Assembly (NCBI GenBank): GCA_026387915.1
Contig: JAPLKS010000002.1
Span: forward strand, 1-40,237
Origin: Gemmatimonadota bacterium
GTDB taxonomy: Bacteria; Gemmatimonadota; Gemmatimonadetes; Gemmatimonadales; Gemmatimonadaceae
Length of the DNA: 40,237 nucleotides
Reading direction: 5' to 3'
A program made the translations under genes and the position numbers. Under the pieces are notes generated by a model. The model did not search any database. It was given only the letters and a program-made list of their open reading frames with translations, and was not told the origin of the DNA. Positions 32,027 to 40,146 of the stretch are shown here, piece after piece; the stretch's first letter is position 1; each line of letters begins with the position of its first letter.

Positions 32027-34102
32027 ATGCGCCGCCTTTCGTTCCGCACCGTCCCCTGTGCTGTGCTGTTGCTCGCCGCGGTCTTTGCCTTGGCACCGCG
32101 CGCCAACGCGCAGGCCAAGCGTCTGCAAGCCGCCGACATTTTCCAGTTGGAATACGCGGCGGAACCGCAAATATCCCCCGATGGTCAATGGGTGGCGTAT
32201 GTGCGGCAGTGGAGCGACAACATGACGGACCGTCGCCACAGCAATATTTGGCTCGCCAAAGTTGATGGCTCGCTGCACCGGCCGTTGACCTCAGGAAAGT
32301 TCGATGATGTGTCGCCGCGCTGGTCGCCGGATGGCAAGCGCCTCGCGTATGTGTCGAATCGGAGCGGGAGCGCGCAGCTCTACATCCGCTGGATGGACAC
32401 CGGTGAATCGTATGCACTCACCAATGGTGGCAATGCGCCCTCGGCGCCGACCTGGTCGCCCGATGGCACGCAGTTGGCATTCTTGCAGTTGGTGTCGAAG
32501 CCCGCGCTCATGGTCGGCACGCCGCTCGCGCCACCGGCCGGTGCCACTTGGTCGCCGCCGGCGAAGTACACCGATCAACTGGTCTTTCGCTTCAATGGCG
32601 TGGGCGAAGTGCCGCCTGGCTTCATGCACGCCTTTGTGGTGCGTGCCGACGGTGGTGCGGCGCGTCAGGTGACGAGTGGTGAGTTTCATCATGGCGGCAC
32701 GTCGTATGGCGGTGGATCACTTGCCTGGACGCCCGACGGCGCGGAGCTGATTCTCGCTGCACGCAGCGGCAAGAATCCGGAGTTCAACTCGCGTGAGTCG
32801 GATCTGTGGGCCGTTGGCGTCACGGATGGCAAGTCGCGACAGCTCACCGATCGCTATGGGCCGGACCAGAATCCGGCGGTGTCACCCGACGGCAAACTCA
32901 TCGCCTACACGGGCTACGACGACCGGCATCAAGGCTATCAGAACACGCTGCTCTACGTGATGAATCGCGATGGCTCGGGCAAGCGGGTCGTGTCGAGCAA
33001 GCTCGACCAGAGTGTGGCGAGCCCGGTCTGGAGCGCTGACGGTCGCGGCATCTATGTGCAATACGATGTGGAAGGGAACACCAAAGTCGCACTCATCGCT
33101 CTCGATGGCACGTTGCGCACGGTCGCCAGCAATATCGGTACGGGGTCGAGCGCGTACAGTGGCGGCAGTTATTCCGTGTCGCGCGATGGCACGGTGGCCA
33201 TCACGCTGAGTACGCCGACCATTCCCTCGCAGGTCGCGGTGACGACGGGTGCGGCGGGGGCTGCGGTGCGCACACTGACCTCGCTCAATAGCGATCTCCT
33301 CGCGAATCGCGTGATTGGCGCCACCGAGGAAATCTGGTACAAGTCGTCGAAGGACGGCCGGAAGATTCAGGGGTGGATCATCAAGCCGCCGAACTTTGAT
33401 CCCTCCAAGAAATATCCGTTCATCCTCGAGATTCACGGTGGCCCGTTTGCGAATTACGGCGACCGCTTTGACGAAGAAAAGCAGATCATGGCCGCCGCGG
33501 GCTACGTGGTGCTCTACACGAATCCGCGCGGCAGTACGAGCTACGGCGAGACCTTCGGCAACTTGATTCATCACGCGTACCCGGGCGACGATTTCTTTGA
33601 CCTCAACTCCGGCGTCGATGCGGTGATTGCCAAGGGGTATGTGGACGACAAGAATTTGTTCGTGACTGGTGGCAGCGGCGGCGGTGTGCTCACGGCGTGG
33701 ATGATTGGACACACCAACCGATTCCGCGCGGCGTTGGCTTTTTACCCGGTGATCAACTGGGAGAGCTTTGCGCTCACCGCCGACATGGCACCGGCCGCCG
33801 TCAACGATTGGTTCCCGGGCTTTCCGTGGGACAACCGCGAGAACTACGACAAGCGGTCATTGCTCTCGGTGGTGAAGAACGTGAAGACGCCGACGCTCAT
33901 TATGACGGGCGAAGAAGATTTCCGTACGCCGATGTCGGAGTCGGAGCAGTACTACAAGGCGCTCAAGATGACGGGGGTAGACGCGGTGCTGGTGCGCGTG
34001 CCCGAGGAGCCGCACGGAATTCGTCGTCGGCCGAGCCATGCGGCAGCGAAGCTGACAACGCTGGCGGGGTGGTTTGAGAAATACCGCGCCACGTTGCAGT
34101 GA
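32027..34102 (+). CDS. S9-family peptidase (secreted)
   Basis: A 691-aa exported serine peptidase of the acylaminoacyl peptidase/DPP IV group. ATG 32027 is preceded by GGAG five bases away and opens a signal peptide (about 1-29, ending RANAQA); the frame extends upstream through a tandem repeat but lacks a sensible start there. Beta-propeller repeats: ISPDGQWVAYV, PRWSPDGKRLAYVSN, PTWSPDGTQLAFL, LAWTPDGAELIL, PAVSPDGKLIAYTG. Catalytic domain: EIHGGPFANYG, GGSGGG with Ser550 (Gly replaces the more usual Tyr or His after Ser), Asp631 in TGEEDFRTP, His663 in EPHGIRRRPSH. This ending is typical of the subgroup. The next gene overlaps its stop by 4 bp. Confidence 0.92.
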   Translation: MRRLSFRTVPCAVLLLAAVFALAPRANAQAKRLQAADIFQLEYAAEPQISPDGQWVAYVRQWSDNMTDRRHSNIWLAKVDGSLHRPLTSGKFDDVSPRWSPDGKRLAYVSNRSGSAQLYIRWMDTGESYALTNGGNAPSAPTWSPDGTQLAFLQLVSKPALMVGTPLAPPAGATWSPPAKYTDQLVFRFNGVGEVPPGFMHAFVVRADGGAARQVTSGEFHHGGTSYGGGSLAWTPDGAELILAARSGKNPEFNSRESDLWAVGVTDGKSRQLTDRYGPDQNPAVSPDGKLIAYTGYDDRHQGYQNTLLYVMNRDGSGKRVVSSKLDQSVASPVWSADGRGIYVQYDVEGNTKVALIALDGTLRTVASNIGTGSSAYSGGSYSVSRDGTVAITLSTPTIPSQVAVTTGAAGAAVRTLTSLNSDLLANRVIGATEEIWYKSSKDGRKIQGWIIKPPNFDPSKKYPFILEIHGGPFANYGDRFDEEKQIMAAAGYVVLYTNPRGSTSYGETFGNLIHHAYPGDDFFDLNSGVDAVIAKGYVDDKNLFVTGGSGGGVLTAWMIGHTNRFRAALAFYPVINWESFALTADMAPAAVNDWFPGFPWDNRENYDKRSLLSVVKNVKTPTLIMTGEEDFRTPMSESEQYYKALKMTGVDAVLVRVPEEPHGIRRRPSHAAAKLTTLAGWFEKYRATLQ

Positions 34103-35259
34103 GCGATCCGCTGTTGCCTAGCGGCATGACTGACGCGCGCGCGCCGCAGCGCTCGGCGGTGCGCGCACAACTTCCACATCTCACGACGTTGCGATTTTTC
34201 GCAGCGTTTTGGGTGTTGGGCTTTCATACCATTCCACGCGCCGCCGATGACGGCGCGTGGAATGCGTTCTGGGGCCGCGGGTGGATGGGCGTCACTTTCT
34301 TTTTTGTGCTCTCGGGATTCATCCTCGCGTACACCTACGGCGCCACTGCCACGACGGTGGATCGGCGGCAGTTTTGGGTGGCGCGCGTGGCGCGGGTGTA
34401 TCCGCTCTATCTCTTTGCGCTGCTCTTTTCTATTCCACAGCTCTGGCACACCGTGGGGGAGTTCGGCACGCAGGGCGAGGTGGTGAGTGGTGCGCGCCTC
34501 GCGGGTATTGTGGTGTCGAGCCTCGCGATGTTGCAGGCGTGGGTGGATTCGTGGGTGTGTGTGTGGAACTGCCCGAGTTGGTCGCTTTCGGTTGAGGCGT
34601 TTTTCTACGCGCTCTTTCCGTTCTTGCTTCCGCTCATTGCCACCCGCATGGGGCGCCGATTCCTCTTGATTGGCACGATTGCCGGACTTGGCATATCGCT
34701 CTCTGCGTCGAGCGGTGCGGCCGTCGGTGCGCTAGCGCAGGAAGCGTCGATGAGTTCGTTGAATCCGCTCGCACGCCTCCCGGAGTTTTTGCTCGGGCTC
34801 TGGCTGGGCGGTGTGTATTTGGCGCGTCGCCCGTCGTGGACGTTGGCGATGCCGCTGGCGCTCGCGGCCGGATGCGCCACGGTTGCTCTCGCGGTGTGGT
34901 CCGGGATGCATCCGGCGTTTCATGCGCCGCATCTCGTGGCGGCTCCGCTGTTCGCGTTGATTGTGTGGGCGGTGGCAGCGTCGCCCAATCCTTCGCGCGG
35001 CCTCTTGGCGTTCGCTCCGCTCGTGCTACTCGGCGAGTCCAGTTACGCGCTCTACCTACTGCATGGACCGCTGCATGGGTACGCGCTCGCGATTTTCCGC
35101 CGTGTGGCACCTGGCGTGGGCTCGTGGGGAGTGTTCGTACTTTACGCCCTCATGACGATCGTCGTGTCCATTGCGAGTTATCGCTGGCTCGAAGTGCCGT
35201 CGCGCGGGTGGATTCGCGGGCGATTTGCGGCGGTTCGGCGCTCGACGACTACGGGGTAG
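34099..35259 (+). CDS. Membrane acyltransferase, acyltransferase-3/OafA family
   Basis: A 386-aa inner-membrane protein with about ten hydrophobic segments that transfers acyl groups to a surface sugar or lipid. LTTLRFFAAFWVLGFH near the start (catalytic-type His), WMGVTFFFVLSGFILAYTYG and CPSWSLSVEAFFYALFP are the family motifs. LGESSYALYLLHGPL near the end is also typical. The start is GTG 34099 overlapping the TGA of the S9 gene (GTGA), suggesting coupling; ATG 34126 is an alternative. Acceptor unknown. Functional link with the peptidase is not evident. Confidence 0.87.
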   Translation: MSDPLLPSGMTDARAPQRSAVRAQLPHLTTLRFFAAFWVLGFHTIPRAADDGAWNAFWGRGWMGVTFFFVLSGFILAYTYGATATTVDRRQFWVARVARVYPLYLFALLFSIPQLWHTVGEFGTQGEVVSGARLAGIVVSSLAMLQAWVDSWVCVWNCPSWSLSVEAFFYALFPFLLPLIATRMGRRFLLIGTIAGLGISLSASSGAAVGALAQEASMSSLNPLARLPEFLLGLWLGGVYLARRPSWTLAMPLALAAGCATVALAVWSGMHPAFHAPHLVAAPLFALIVWAVAASPNPSRGLLAFAPLVLLGESSYALYLLHGPLHGYALAIFRRVAPGVGSWGVFVLYALMTIVVSIASYRWLEVPSRGWIRGRFAAVRRSTTTG

Positions 35260-35298: not shown

Positions 35299-35736
35299 CT
35301 ACGGCGCGTCGCAGATGGGTTCGCCTTCGCGCCCGGCGTCGAGACCGCCCATCGTCTTGGGTTTGTCACCCACCACGCCGCTCGCACCAACCCAGATGGT
35401 GCAGCTCTTGCCCTTGAGCGCGGGATGAAAGGTGACCATCCCCGACCAGCCACGGCTCCCGGCCTGAATCACCTGCGGATAGAGCGTGCCCTTGGGGTGG
35501 GGATAGAGTCCAAGCGCCTTGCCGTCGGTGGTGTAGCTACCGTGATCGGCCCAGTACTTCTCCTGCACCACCACGAGATTGCGCAACGCAAGCTTCATGT
35601 CGGCAATAGCGTGCGGTGCGGTGGTGGCAGTGTCGGGCACGAGTATTTGCGATGGCGCTTGCGCGTTGAGCGTTGCAAAGCGGCCGGCAGCAGAGGCGAT
35701 GATGGTGGCGGTGATAAGGCGTTTGACGTACGACAT
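35299..35736 (-). CDS. Small secreted protein, pseudopilin-like C-terminal region
   Basis: A 145-aa protein with a signal-peptide-like N-terminus (about 1-26). The mature part has a helix (HAIADMKLALRNLVVVQEKYWADHGSYTTD) that resembles the stalk-to-head junction of type IV pilins and type II secretion pseudopilins, followed by a small beta domain with one Cys pair (SCTIW and EPICDAP). The prepilin cleavage motif (G before Phe plus Glu5) is not present in usual form, although GRFATLNA in the signal is faintly similar. Not confidently assigned. It starts 46 bp after the preceding gene on the same strand and may be the last gene of that operon. Confidence 0.65.
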   Translation of the reverse strand: MSYVKRLITATIIASAAGRFATLNAQAPSQILVPDTATTAPHAIADMKLALRNLVVVQEKYWADHGSYTTDGKALGLYPHPKGTLYPQVIQAGSRGWSGMVTFHPALKGKSCTIWVGASGVVGDKPKTMGGLDAGREGEPICDAP

Positions 35737-35782
35737 TGTTTGATCTCTCGAAGTGAGTCAGCGTTTCAACGACGCCGACGGA

Positions 35783-36970
35783 TTAGTTGACGCGGGGACG
35801 CGGCGCAAAACGCACGGCAACGCCGGCGCAGCAGATGACAAAGAGCAAGGTGAGCGCCGTAGAGACCGGCGGGTTCCATGGTCCGGCGCGGTATGGGCCG
35901 TCGCCTCGGACGAGTTGGAGGCGTAACCAACTGCCGAGCGACTGCCCACTCACGTCGAAATACGCATCCGCAAATGGACTATCAGATTTCCAGAGTTGCG
36001 CAAAACGCGCGGGGCCGAGGTCGCGTGCGAGAGTGCCGAGGAGTTTTGTCTCCGTGGCACCGCCGGCGACGACACCCATCGCCGAGCTGATCCCCGCAGG
36101 CCGGGATGCATTGACGCCGCGTTGCGCGAAGTCGTAGCCGTTCTGCTGTGCATCAACGCGGAGAATGCCAAGGCAGGCCGCGTCGTCACCGGCCGCGCAG
36201 CGTGCGCTGTGCATCAGCGATCGATCGGTTTCGAAATCCAAGTGCATCACGAAATGCCAGACGCTATCTGGGACGGTGGCATTGTAGCTCTGCATCCGGT
36301 ACAAACTGCTGGTGGTGAACTGATCGGTCACGGCGCGTCCTGGTGCGCCGAAGGCGTCGTAAAACGCGCAGCCGCCGAGGAGCGAGCGTGGGGGCAAGTG
36401 GCCTGGCTGCGACGCGGCCACAGCGTTGAGGCGCAGCACGATCACGCAGCGTCCGCCGGTTTCGGTGCGCGGCATGATCATGCGGCGCGTGTTGCCGTTC
36501 TTGATGGAGCGGTTGAACCAGAGCGCGTCGGATCCCGTCGGGTTGGTCGGAGCGGACGCCACCGATACGAAAGCCAGATCCTCAGCGGGGACAACCACAA
36601 TGCCGATGGGTGCTACACCATGCGCTGGGAGTGCGGCACGTTCGGTGCGCACGATCTGCTCGAGGTTCGCTTTGGAGGCTGCGGAGTAGTTGCCGATGAA
36701 GACCACGGGTGCTTCGGCACCGGCGGGGAGTGCGCGAAGCGCGCGCTCCGCCGCCTGCACGTCGAGCCAGAGCGAGCGAGCGGCGAGCAAGCTGGAGGCG
36801 TGTTGCACCCGCGCCTGTGCGATCTCGCGCAGCGTAACGGAGGAGGCGCTTTCGTTGAAGCCGCGCCAGCGCCACATCGGCTCGATGTTTTTTGGGCTAA
36901 AGAATGCGGCGACGAGTACGCCGCAGCCGATGACGAGCATCGCCACCCAACGGGGGAAGGTAAGGGTCAC
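35783..36970 (-). CDS. Uncharacterised double-anchored periplasmic protein B of the GntR-ABC operon
   Basis: I do not recognise this 395-aa protein. It has an N-terminal membrane segment (about 8-24), a large polar domain and a C-terminal membrane segment (about 368-388) with a basic tail (RPRVN), so the middle is probably periplasmic. A helix-rich stretch with many Ala/Arg follows the first anchor (45-82). CAAGDDAAC (Cys-x7-Cys) lies in the second half. RDLGPARFAQLW near 316-327, then GSWLRLQLVR, resembles the C-terminal helical pattern of peptidase-MA-like proteins, but no HExxH is visible, so it would be non-catalytic if related. It shares this layout with protein A upstream, suggesting distant paralogues. 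GTG start overlapping the TGA of protein A by 4 bp. Confidence 0.72.
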   Translation of the reverse strand: MTLTFPRWVAMLVIGCGVLVAAFFSPKNIEPMWRWRGFNESASSVTLREIAQARVQHASSLLAARSLWLDVQAAERALRALPAGAEAPVVFIGNYSAASKANLEQIVRTERAALPAHGVAPIGIVVVPAEDLAFVSVASAPTNPTGSDALWFNRSIKNGNTRRMIMPRTETGGRCVIVLRLNAVAASQPGHLPPRSLLGGCAFYDAFGAPGRAVTDQFTTSSLYRMQSYNATVPDSVWHFVMHLDFETDRSLMHSARCAAGDDAACLGILRVDAQQNGYDFAQRGVNASRPAGISSAMGVVAGGATETKLLGTLARDLGPARFAQLWKSDSPFADAYFDVSGQSLGSWLRLQLVRGDGPYRAGPWNPPVSTALTLLFVICCAGVAVRFAPRPRVN

Positions 36971-38130
36971 GGGCGCCTCCGGGTGGCCACCACGCCAAGC
37001 AGGGCAATCCAGCCGAGCATCACGCCAGCTTGCAGCACGCTGGGCGTCACGAGGTCAGGGCTCGCGGCGAGCGCGTGCGTGCGCCAGTCGCGCACCAGCG
37101 TTGGCGTGTCAATTCCCGACGAGGCCGCGAGCAACTCGCGAACCGGAGTCCCTGTGGGCGCCGCGCGCAGTCGCGCAAAAGCATTGGGCCCACCGCGATC
37201 GAGCGCGTACGCAAAGAGTGTGCGCCGCGAATCTATGTGGAGCGGGCGCGGCACCGTGCGGGTGCGGAGGAAGGCGATGCACGACGCATCATTGCTCTGC
37301 TTGACGCACTGCTTGTACAGGGTGACTTGATCGTCGGCGCTGGGGTTTGGTGGCGTGCGCAACACGATGGCGCGCCGGTCGTCGGCATCATACCAACTAA
37401 GAAGTTCGTCGCCTGCGTCGGTGAGGCCGAGCGCGGATTCGCATTGCGCGAGCGCGCCGACGTGGCAGGCGCGCGCAATCGTGGACGGTGAGGTAGCGAG
37501 GTCCACCGCGACATCTTCCCACGCTTGTGGCGCGGTGGGGCGGGCCGGCATCCAGGCGCCGAGCCAGAGGACGAGCTTGGGCGACTCGCCGTTGGTGGCG
37601 AGTGCGCCGATGAGATCGCTGAGAACATCACGGGCCGGCGTTTCGCGGACCGGTGCGCGAAGACTGTTATAACGTGGGCTGTGGTCCGCGAATTGGAACG
37701 AAAGCCACACCTGGCGTTGCTGCCACCAGTTTGCGTAGGCATACTCAGCTCGCACGTCAATCGGGTGGCCACGCACGAGGGAATCGGCGCTGGCGCCGAG
37801 TACCGTGCGAGCGTCCGTCCAGCTCAGGTTGGCGGCGCGTTGCAGAGCGGCGGCTCCGCCGGGGCCTAGGGCGTCGGTTGTGAAGCGCACGGCGAGCGCG
37901 CCGACCACCACACTGTCGGGGAGATTCGGGCGGGGCAGCGCACGTACCGAGTCCACCTTCCGACGCGCTTCGCGTAAGGCAATATCGGTGCTGCGGAGCC
38001 GTGCTTCGAGGTCGGCGACCTGTGCCGATGCGTTCTGCGCGCGCGCCGCGAGCGGCCACGCGCACGCAACGACGACGGCAACAGCCGCGAACAGTCTGCC
38101 GATTCGCGGACGCATGCGTCGCTCACACAT
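36967..38130 (-). CDS. Uncharacterised membrane-tethered periplasmic protein A of the GntR-ABC operon
   Basis: Not recognised. The 387-aa protein has a cleavable-type signal (about 1-31, ending LAARA), a predicted coiled coil at 35-63 (VADLEARLRSTDIALREARRKVDSV), a large domain and a C-terminal membrane segment (about 363-382) followed by ATRRRP. Cysteines pair in two spots (CHVGALAQC and CVKQSNDASC). Near 311-350, DRGGPNAFARL then TLVRDWRTHAL matches the end pattern of peptidase-MA-like domains, and parallels RDLGPARFAQLW in protein B. No HExxH is present. It overlaps the permease stop by 8 bp (ATG 38130); ATG 38115 is an alternative. Its place suggests a periplasmic partner of the ABC transporter. 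Confidence 0.72.
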   Translation of the reverse strand: MCERRMRPRIGRLFAAVAVVVACAWPLAARAQNASAQVADLEARLRSTDIALREARRKVDSVRALPRPNLPDSVVVGALAVRFTTDALGPGGAAALQRAANLSWTDARTVLGASADSLVRGHPIDVRAEYAYANWWQQRQVWLSFQFADHSPRYNSLRAPVRETPARDVLSDLIGALATNGESPKLVLWLGAWMPARPTAPQAWEDVAVDLATSPSTIARACHVGALAQCESALGLTDAGDELLSWYDADDRRAIVLRTPPNPSADDQVTLYKQCVKQSNDASCIAFLRTRTVPRPLHIDSRRTLFAYALDRGGPNAFARLRAAPTGTPVRELLAASSGIDTPTLVRDWRTHALAASPDLVTPSVLQAGVMLGWIALLGVVATRRRP

Positions 38131-38776
38131 CGATGAGCATCCAGCGCGCGGTGAGCGTGTCGAGCGGCCCCGGCCAGCTGGTGAGTATCACCCAGAGCGC
38201 GGCGGTCGGGCTGTGAAAGCCCACGAGTTGCGCCGCGATCTCTACCGCGCCAACGGCAAACATGATGATGACGGCAACCTTCGCGGCGCTCCGGCCCGCG
38301 AGGTACTGCAACGCAAAGGCCATCCCATAAAACAGGAGGGCGGAGAGATACCAGCGGATGGTGATCCCCGCAGGGTAGGCATGCAGCGTGGCTGGCAGAT
38401 TGGCGCTCGCCGCCGCAACGAGCGAACCGAGGAAGAGTGCGGCCGCTGGCACGGCCAGTAAGGTGGCACCCGCAAGAAAGCGCAGACGCACAAAGGTCGG
38501 CCAGGCGACCGGCAGCGACATCGCGTAGATGTGGCGTCCGATGTTGTCTTTGACCCACGGCCCTGCGGCGAGGCTCGCGCCGCAGACAAAAGCGAGCGAA
38601 ATAAAGAAGAGCGCACCGATCTTGGAGACTTCCATCCATCCCGTCACGGAGGAGTCGTACCCGAAGTGCGGGCGCACACTGATGAGTATGGCCGGTACGC
38701 CGAAGGCGGTGAGCACGTAGAGCACGAGCTCGAGTCGCGCCCACTTCCACTGGGTGAAGAGCGTTTGACGGAACAT
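38123..38776 (-). CDS. ABC-2-type transporter permease-like membrane protein
   Basis: A 217-aa protein with about six membrane segments (roughly 17-33, 51-70, 95-120, 138-156, 162-182, 190-200). The N-terminus MFRQTLFTQWKWARLE and the size fit the short permeases of GntR-ABC (Ytr-like) operons. Its ATG shares one base with the TAA of the ATPase gene (TAATG), so they are coupled. A homodimer would pair with two copies of the ATPase. Substrate unknown. Confidence 0.75.
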   Translation of the reverse strand: MFRQTLFTQWKWARLELVLYVLTAFGVPAILISVRPHFGYDSSVTGWMEVSKIGALFFISLAFVCGASLAAGPWVKDNIGRHIYAMSLPVAWPTFVRLRFLAGATLLAVPAAALFLGSLVAAASANLPATLHAYPAGITIRWYLSALLFYGMAFALQYLAGRSAAKVAVIIMFAVGAVEIAAQLVGFHSPTAALWVILTSWPGPLDTLTARWMLIDV

Positions 38777-39681
38777 TAGTTGGCCTCCACGTCGGGGGTG
38801 CGTGCGGAGCGCAGGAGTTCCACAAAGCTTTCTTCGAGGTCCAGATCAATCACTTCGCGCAGTTCGGAGGTGCCGGACGCAAACCACTGTTGCATCTCCG
38901 GCTGCCAGCCACGCACCACCCATTGCTCTTCGCGCCCAATCGATTGATCGCGATTCAGCAGCGTAAAGGGGAGCGCCCCGATCTCCGTTGGCGCGTCGAG
39001 CACGCGAAGACGCTTGATGCCGCTCCGGAAGGTGGTCATCGCCATCTCGGCGACCATCCGGCCGTCATCCATCACGCCAACGTGATCGCAAATGCGTTCT
39101 TGTTCATGAATGAGATGGCTCGAGATGAGCACTGTGGCCTTTTTGCTGTTCACATATTCGAGGAGCGCGGCGAGCACATCGCGCCGTACGACGGGGTCGA
39201 GTCCGTCGGTGGGTTCGTCGAGAATGAGCAGTTCGGGATTGTGCGCGAGGGCGAGGAGCATCATCAGTTTGCCGCTCTCGCCTTTGGAGAGCCGTTCGAC
39301 ACCGGTTTCGGCGCGGAGGGCAAAGGCGCGGCGGAGTTCCTCGGCGCGCTTGGCGTCCCAGTCGGCGTAGAACGCGGCGTGGTAGCGCATCGTTTCTTCG
39401 ACGGTGAGCGACGTATAGAGGTGCAACCGCTCCGGCACGTAGCCGATGCGCGCGAGCGCGTGGTGCACGCCTTTCGGAACATCGTGGCCCAGCACGGAAA
39501 TGGTGCCATGTTCGGCGCGGAGCATGCCGAGCATGAGTCGGATGGTGGAGGTTTTGCCGGAGCCGTTGGGTCCGAGAAAGCCGTACACGCAGCCGGAGGG
39601 GACGGACATCGCGAGATCGCGAATGGCAAACTCGCGGCCGGCGCGCCAGGTCACGTTGCGGAGCTGAATGACGTCGCTCAC
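38776..39681 (-). CDS. ABC transporter ATP-binding protein, Ytr/drug-export type
   Basis: A 301-aa ATPase. GTG 39681 overlaps the TGA of the GntR gene by 4 bp; a much longer Arg-rich reading upstream is a shadow of that gene. Motifs: Walker A GPNGSGKT (37-44), a YVPE segment where many ABC proteins have the Q-loop, signature LSKGESGK (131-138), Walker B LLILDEP (151-157, Glu156), D-loop GLDP and switch His189 (SSHL). The C-terminal 85 residues form the extra domain usual in this exporter class. It should energise the small permease encoded next. Which way and what it moves cannot be told. Confidence 0.92.
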   Translation of the reverse strand: MSDVIQLRNVTWRAGREFAIRDLAMSVPSGCVYGFLGPNGSGKTSTIRLMLGMLRAEHGTISVLGHDVPKGVHHALARIGYVPERLHLYTSLTVEETMRYHAAFYADWDAKRAEELRRAFALRAETGVERLSKGESGKLMMLLALAHNPELLILDEPTDGLDPVVRRDVLAALLEYVNSKKATVLISSHLIHEQERICDHVGVMDDGRMVAEMAMTTFRSGIKRLRVLDAPTEIGALPFTLLNRDQSIGREEQWVVRGWQPEMQQWFASGTSELREVIDLDLEESFVELLRSARTPDVEAN

Positions 39682-40055
39682 TTGCGGTCCTCGAGTTCTG
39701 AGGTGAGAGCTTTGCGGAGGTCGTCGCGATTGATGCCGAGTCGTGCGGCGGAGGCGAGGAGTTCGCGCACGAGTCGTTTGGCGGCGGCGGTGCGTTCGCG
39801 GGCGCGGGTGTCGGCTGGGACATCGGCGACGTAGGTGCCGGCGCCCTGTTTCATTTCGACGAGCCCTTCGCGTTCGAGGTCGCGATAGGCTTGCACGACG
39901 GTGGCCGGGTTGACGCGCAGTCGTGTGGCGAGGGCGCGGACGGAGGGGAGCCCGTCTCCGGCGCGGAGTTCGCCCGAGGCGACCGCGACGCGCACGCGTT
40001 CGGCGATCTGCGCGTAGATGGGTGTTGGGCTTCTGGGATCGATACGCTCGAACAT
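39678..40055 (-). CDS. GntR-family regulator, YtrA subfamily
   Basis: A 125-aa repressor-type protein and first gene of the ABC operon. The N-terminal winged helix is typical (PIYAQIAERVRVAVASGELRAGDGLPSVRALATRLRVNPATVVQAYRDLEREGLVEMKQGAGTYV; residues 12-76 hold these elements). A short helical C-terminal part of about 45 residues, rather than a large ligand domain, marks the YtrA subfamily, whose genes usually sit at the head of ABC operons and repress them. Its probable operator is the inverted repeat at 40071-40092, just before the ATG at 40055. Confidence 0.92.
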   Translation of the reverse strand: MFERIDPRSPTPIYAQIAERVRVAVASGELRAGDGLPSVRALATRLRVNPATVVQAYRDLEREGLVEMKQGAGTYVADVPADTRARERTAAAKRLVRELLASAARLGINRDDLRKALTSELEDRK

Positions 40056-40070
40056 CGGCGACCTGTGTTA

Positions 40071-40092
40071 GTGTAGTCATACAGTGCTACAC
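40071..40092. promoter_or_regulatory. Candidate GntR operator
   Basis: GTGTAG and CTACAC form a perfect 6-10-6 inverted repeat, 15 bp before the GntR start codon. YtrA-type regulators bind such TGTA/TACA dyads and repress themselves. A perfect TTGACA on the - strand at 40109-40104 lies upstream, but no good -10 is found at 16-18 bp; the nearest TACACT (40075-40070) is 28 bp away. The promoter is therefore uncertain, while the dyad is clear. Confidence 0.55.
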
Positions 40093-40146
40093 ATGGTCTG
40101 GGATGTCAAGAGGGGGTGCGGTCTACCTTCGGCGGGTGTTGGCGGG

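Follow-up and report, generated by a model that had tools for sequence, protein, structure and literature searches.

What do two large membrane-anchored proteins of no recognized family contribute to a small bacterial transporter operon? The question is raised by a stretch of 40,237 nucleotides (nt) from a Gemmatimonadota bacterium (GenBank assembly GCA_026387915.1, contig JAPLKS010000002.1, positions 1 to 40,237; hereafter the window), in which genes for a GntR-family regulator, an ATP-binding cassette (ABC) ATPase and a small permease are followed by genes for two such proteins, here called A and B. Sequence, predicted fold and conservation together support the view that A and B derive from membrane-anchored Peptidase_MA/gluzincin metallopeptidases, with zinc and catalysis lost. 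On this basis we favour a reading, with a probability of roughly 0.6, in which A and B serve an ABC-2 complex outside the cytoplasm as pseudo-peptidase subunits, binding a ligand and gating or feeding the complex, under YtrA-type autorepression.

An earlier description of the window, made from its letters only (the sequence-only reading), had proposed a single unit of five genes overlapping by 4, 1, 8 and 4 bp. The coordinates confirm these overlaps, all on the minus strand:

40055-39678, minus strand: GntR regulator, 125 amino acids (aa), YtrA-like in size (Pfam GntR, E 2.1e-19)
39681-38776, minus strand, GTG start: ABC-2-type ATPase, 301 aa (ABC_tran, E 1.2e-24)
38776-38123, minus strand: small ABC-2 permease, 217 aa (ABC2_membrane_5, E 0.047 for this sequence alone)
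38130-36967, minus strand: protein A, 387 aa, with a predicted signal peptide, a putative pseudo-gluzincin domain with two cysteine pairs, a C-terminal membrane helix and a basic tail
36970-35783, minus strand: protein B, 395 aa, with a predicted N-terminal membrane helix, a putative pseudo-gluzincin domain with two cysteine pairs and a C-terminal membrane helix

The five-gene unit is a conserved Gemmatimonadota operon. Gene order and overlaps are kept across the loci compared, and the 8-bp overlap of permease and A genes is found again at most of them. Of 149 relatives, 39 have A and 32 have B; profile searches of 395 genomes from the phylum gave tallies, at E ≤ 0.001, of 91 for A, 90 for the permease and 102 for B. 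The expectation that the five genes travel together is borne out: A lies directly downstream of the permease on the same strand in 88 of 89 permease loci, and B lies within 2.5 kb in 84. These 89 loci are those that remain once weak permease rows (G183, G078, G238, a second G084 row and a second G267 fragment), other second fragments, and matches with E values above about 1e-9 for A or 1e-7 for B are set aside. In four of the five loci without B (G137, G089:C34, G002:C39 and G092) the contig stops there or shortly after; G092 retains a truncated B, and in G002 B is on another contig. The fifth, G313, also lacks A, and a single divergent PDZ-type relative of 365 aa (L233:4368-5462) adjoins the permease instead. 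This protein has no HExxH zinc motif; it matches PDZ_6 below the Pfam cut-off (E 1.6e-4) and resembles both of the profiles weakly (A2, E 6.7e-7; A1, E 0.013). A second set, in which these operon regions are joined with loci named in the GTDB collection, has permease and A together in all 61 unique loci and B as well in 58; the three others have 547, 878 and 1862 bases of contig left downstream. Among 45 named loci, 43 are labelled as Gemmatimonadota or Gemmatimonadetes groups and two are contigs of Chloroflexi metagenome-assembled genomes (MAGs).

Some loci depart from the common form. In G313 the PDZ pseudo-gluzincin is the only extra gene after GntR, ATPase and permease, which makes it a simpler form of the system; another PDZ-containing pseudo-gluzincin without HExxH (L223:1-1335, in G276) starts at a contig end. 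The permease-A-B block occurs twice in tandem at G391:C241:1967-7719. The two Chloroflexi-labelled copies (L161, L163) belong to a soil series that also yielded Gemmatimonadetes MAGs, and they may be misbinned or reflect transfer.

Proteins A and B had been proposed as paralogues, and their profiles do align (hhalign probability 96.8, E 2.9e-10, 149 columns); 15 control comparisons, with reversed profiles or unrelated operon families, gave E values of 0.046-0.75. The homology is visible to profiles only, and BLASTP of A against B returned nothing of note. The suggested origin from a degenerate peptidase of the MA type is likewise supported, by matches of the B profile, by alignments to a Peptidase_MA profile and by re-alignment of the B model to metallopeptidases. 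Outside the operon, all ten places read among the B-profile matches encode HExxH-bearing proteins of Peptidase_MA type (E 2e-7 to 2e-4); about fifteen places were listed, the others, also weak matches, being G275, G182, G393, G089:C5 and G391:C10. Two of the ten were checked in Pfam and match Peptidase_MA_2 above its cut-off. Compared with a profile of 40 Peptidase_MA-type sequences, B scores E 1e-6 and A scores E 5e-4. In an alignment of 16 catalytic relatives the N-terminus is hydrophobic, HELAH and P.RWFDEGYA follow, the C-terminal segment keeps a conserved W, and a single membrane helix leads into a basic tail. The overall layout is that of A and B. The window's own genome encodes a membrane-anchored protein of Peptidase_MA_2 type, above the Pfam cut-off, at G000:C13:87808-88278 (L146), a ready active counterpart to the two operon proteins.

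The statement that A and B match no known family was upheld, as neither has a Pfam or NCBIfam match at E ≤ 1, classical families of ABC substrate-binding proteins included, and no Pfam model matches more than one member of either family (36 A and 29 B members scanned). Sequence searches of the PDB gave nothing useful. A defence-system or phage family was considered and rejected: no PADLOC model matches A or B, and PHROGs offered nothing convincing, with no match for B and two weak matches at the ends of A (E about 0.02). Other features singled out in the sequence-only reading held in part. Cysteine pairs enclosing seven residues (C222/C230 in A, C258/C266 in B) or eight (C275/C284 in A) are present as described, and B has a further pair, C175/C201, that had gone unlisted; all eight cysteines are kept in 90 to 98% of 52 sequences. 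These figures come from the conservation alignment, built from the window and 51 loci at which all five genes are present, giving 52 sequences of each protein. The GPxxFAxL motif survives as its glycine (G314 in A, G319 in B), which is invariant in the alignments, but the literal motif is only local, and a looser GP..[FL]..L stands at the same place in 4 of 36 A and 4 of 31 B sequences. A single C-terminal membrane helix is predicted for A, together with a signal-peptide-like N-terminus, but in B each end carries a membrane-type helix; the topology of both proteins is our inference from predicted models.

The sequences point to a loss of catalysis in both families. HExxH is present in none of 36 A sequences and in one of 31 B sequences, as a chance-like HEAAH past the last conserved cysteine, and neither A nor B reaches the Pfam cut-off of Peptidase_MA_2. 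Which residue of A or B occupies the position of the lost HExxH is uncertain in the mapping. Conservation reaches 85% or more in 19 of the 387 columns of A and 9 of the 395 columns of B, which are mostly cysteines, glycines, one proline, aromatics and a few aliphatics. Polar residues at that level are limited to Q32, R302 and R320 in A, of which Q32 is probably at the signal-peptide junction, and B has none. The 16 catalytic relatives retain HExxH and a WFDEGYA-like stretch.

A and B also diverge fastest within the operon. Mean pairwise identity is 0.59 for GntR, 0.60 for the ATPase, 0.40 for the permease, 0.27 for A and 0.25 for B. Correlations of distance matrices (rho) are highest for permease and A (0.71), followed by GntR and ATPase (0.63), permease and B (0.63) and A and B (0.61), and are lower for the ATPase with A (0.53) or B (0.49); maxima of permuted matrices were 0.19 to 0.37. 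These correlations fit a complex in the membrane that would join the permease to A and B.

Predicted structures agree with the sequence evidence in pointing to gluzincin descent. The A model is good (mean predicted local distance difference test, pLDDT, 89.0) and the B model moderate (pLDDT 71.8). In VIA re-alignment the best row for A is E. coli aminopeptidase N (Z 6.5, root-mean-square deviation (rmsd) 5.2, 193 residues, chain 193-438), and ERAP1 and yeast LTA4 hydrolase are also listed. For B the best rows are lugdulysin of family M30 (Z 7.2 and 6.8, rmsd 4.9, 238 and 232 residues), followed by bacterial collagenases (Z 6.2-6.0). Counted from titles and presumed family membership, about 30 of the 50 B rows are metallopeptidases of families M1, M4, M9, M30 or M61; TFIID rows occur among the B-model re-alignments as well. 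The sequence-only reading had named two outcomes that would speak against it, unrelated folds for A and B and homologous operons that routinely lack both, and neither arose.

Several observations weigh against this interpretation. The sequence link of A to Peptidase_MA is weak by itself, and the hhalign matches span mainly the C-terminal part of the proteins. Foldseek gave no hit at E ≤ 0.001 with A or B, the gluzincin pattern showing up in VIA re-alignment only, and rows for VtrA and CadC, covering 82-100 residues, tie with aminopeptidase N in the A list within about one Z unit. All Z scores are below 8, a range in which unrelated arrangements score too, and therefore fold alone does not settle gluzincin descent. 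Since A and B served to find the loci behind the permease profile, co-occurrence is favoured by construction, and the unequal rates of change (0.27 and 0.25 for A and B against 0.59-0.60 for GntR and ATPase) mean that the gap in rho could partly mirror rates.

The regulator and its upstream region suggest how the operon would be controlled. At 125 aa the GntR protein fits the short regulators, with a small C-terminal domain, that stand beside ABC genes in YtrA-type operons, and its gene overlaps the ATPase gene. In NCBIfam it resembles PmtR weakly, at 60.5 bits against a cut-off of 200. The window carries the following element:

40064..40109, minus strand: putative promoter-operator, made up of a -35 box TTGACA (40109-40104) and, overlying the -10 region, an imperfect dyad TGTAT-N10-ACACA (40083-40064)

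The dyad ends 8 nt upstream of the GntR start. An exact match to TGTA-N12-TACA sits here in a shifted phase, and the copy in canonical phase is imperfect. The family was surveyed in 43 upstream regions, the window included, after 12 loci had been left out (11 without a start motif and one without a start codon). TGTA-N12-TACA lies upstream of GntR in 31 of 43 (shuffle mean 0.04, maximum 1), so the long inverted repeat of YtrA-type operons is a feature of the family. TGTAT-N10-ATACA is present in 24 of 43 (0 in 100 shuffles), and TTGAC with a fitting -10 element in 34 of 43. The dyad most often begins 26 nt past TTGAC, which places it over the -10 region. YtrA regulators are described as having long dyad operators with distant half sites, about 24 bp being typical (PMC6746942). 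The GntR protein is likely an autorepressor acting at the dyad over its own -10 region.

The two central genes have the hallmarks of an ABC-2 exporter, namely the ATPase motifs (Walker A GPNGSGKT, LSKGE and LLILDEP) and an ABC-2 permease. The window permease by itself falls below the Pfam cut-off, and 17 of 32 members of its family match ABC2_membrane_5 at E ≤ 0.1 (best E 2.3e-6). The best NCBIfam profile for the ATPase is PmtA, at 164.9 bits against a cut-off of 350. By the curated NCBIfam cut-offs, then, neither the regulator nor the ATPase belongs to PmtR or to the phenol-soluble modulin (PSM) exporter Pmt.

In the mechanism we favour, a YtrA-type repressor would sit on the conserved dyad covering its own -10 region, and an envelope signal, proposed by analogy with ytr and clnRAB, would relieve repression. 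The overlaps suggest that the five proteins are then made in order through coupled translation. A dimeric ABC-2 permease with its ATPase, judged from their families, would form the motor, and A and B would stand on the outer face, kept there by probable disulfides and by C-terminal membrane helices. Judged from co-occurrence and distance correlation only, A and B are most likely paired on the permease. The old peptide cleft may bind a peptide-like or envelope ligand and so gate or load the transporter. The weakest step is the likely role, export of, or defence against, envelope-active peptides, which is drawn by analogy with other GntR-ABC operons. A broader proposal, to which we give slightly less than even odds, is that the operon represents a kind of ABC-2 machine peculiar to this phylum, with a zinc-less gluzincin heterodimer dedicated to it as receptor or gate outside the cytoplasm, and with the one-gene PDZ form of G313 as its sister.

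Other explanations account for parts of these data. A and B could be effectors, with the ABC pair acting as a mechanotransmitter that transports nothing and reshapes A and B so that they act on the cell wall or outer membrane; FtsEX is an analogue. The obligate coupling of the permease to A and B and the membrane anchoring of both would suit such a device, and work on the B. subtilis ytr complex discusses that it may be no transporter at all (PMC12772383). We nevertheless regard this as unlikely, given that no wall-acting gene is a constant neighbour in a survey made noisy by shadow open reading frames (ORFs) and that the proteins have no conserved catalytic residue with which to do wall work. 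That same feature bears on the proposal that A and B remain enzymatic, having gained another active site within the gluzincin cleft. The kept fold and disulfide cysteines speak for it, but the zinc motif is gone from A and was seen in a single B sequence, chance-like, and almost no polar residue is conserved while the catalytic relatives keep their motifs; this is by some way the least probable of the explanations considered.

The operon might instead expel antimicrobial peptides or give immunity to them by pumping, and A and B might do no more than stabilise or fold the permease in the manner of chaperones. PmtA as the best, though sub-threshold, profile for the ATPase is in keeping with this, as is clnRAB of C. 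difficile, a GntR-ABC operon induced by the peptide LL-37 (PMC6117091); yet the operon described there consists of regulator, ATPase and permease only. The rapid change of A and B, the quickest among the five proteins, suits ligand contact better than folding, and we consider a chaperone-like function improbable, more so than that of effector. The ligand-binding pseudo-peptidase pair remains our preferred reading.

The surroundings of the operon vary. The small secreted protein that had been noted after the five genes is encoded as follows:

35736-35299, minus strand: small secreted ORF, a neighbour of the operon, 145 aa

The ORF is present as described, but it is no part of the conserved unit; as a sixth member it was ruled out because it lies beyond a 46-nt gap and occurs near only 4 of 40 operon regions. 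It is pilin-like by eye, without a database match, and its relatives adjoin operon copies in L061, L096, L098 and L099. An Acyltransferase_3 membrane protein is encoded at 34099-35259 on the opposite strand, convergent with the operon, and a relative of it adjoins the operon in L061. No constant sixth neighbour emerged from a cluster survey of 61 loci, which was noisy and dominated by GC-rich shadow ORFs.

No account of an operon like this one, or of pseudo-gluzincins partnering ABC transporters, came up in the paper listings searched, and to our knowledge extracytoplasmic partners of ABC-2 transporters are few. The regulator-ABC layout is already known; what appears to be new is the obligate pseudo-gluzincin pair. 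If the preferred reading is right, a dead peptidase pair tied to one permease family would represent a new receptor or gate for a pump of this kind, with a peptide-binding cleft reused without catalysis and old enzymes seemingly turned into transporter parts. In a soil and water phylum that has been little studied, some 90 loci encoding unnamed proteins would turn into a single system open to testing, with its operator defined and catalytic relatives as outgroup.

Among known proteins, the Peptidase_MA_2 (PF13485) members of Gemmatimonadota resemble A and B in starting with a signal peptide, in what is probably a shared gluzincin-like domain, in a membrane helix and basic tail at the C-terminus, and in a similar C-terminal segment closing in a conserved W. 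They keep HELAH and RWFDEGYA, whereas A and B have neither, carry conserved cysteines and are unmatched by Pfam. TAF2 of human TFIID is an inactive homologue of M1-type aminopeptidases, a dead gluzincin-fold protein serving as a structural or binding part, much as is proposed for A and B, but it belongs to an unrelated system that is nuclear and not membrane-bound. PmtR-Pmt is another YtrA-type GntR-ABC operon, although the GntR protein described here falls far below the PmtR cut-off. The closest parallels in layout are YtrGABCDEF of Bacillus subtilis and ClnRAB, in which, as here, a short GntR repressor with a long dyad operator heads an ABC operon. The ytr operon is induced by inhibitors of the lipid II cycle and includes an extracytoplasmic protein, YtrF, as A and B are included here (PMC12772383). 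In place of the lipoprotein YtrF, the Gemmatimonadota operon combines one ATPase and one small permease with an extracytoplasmic part that would be a pair of paralogous pseudo-gluzincins.

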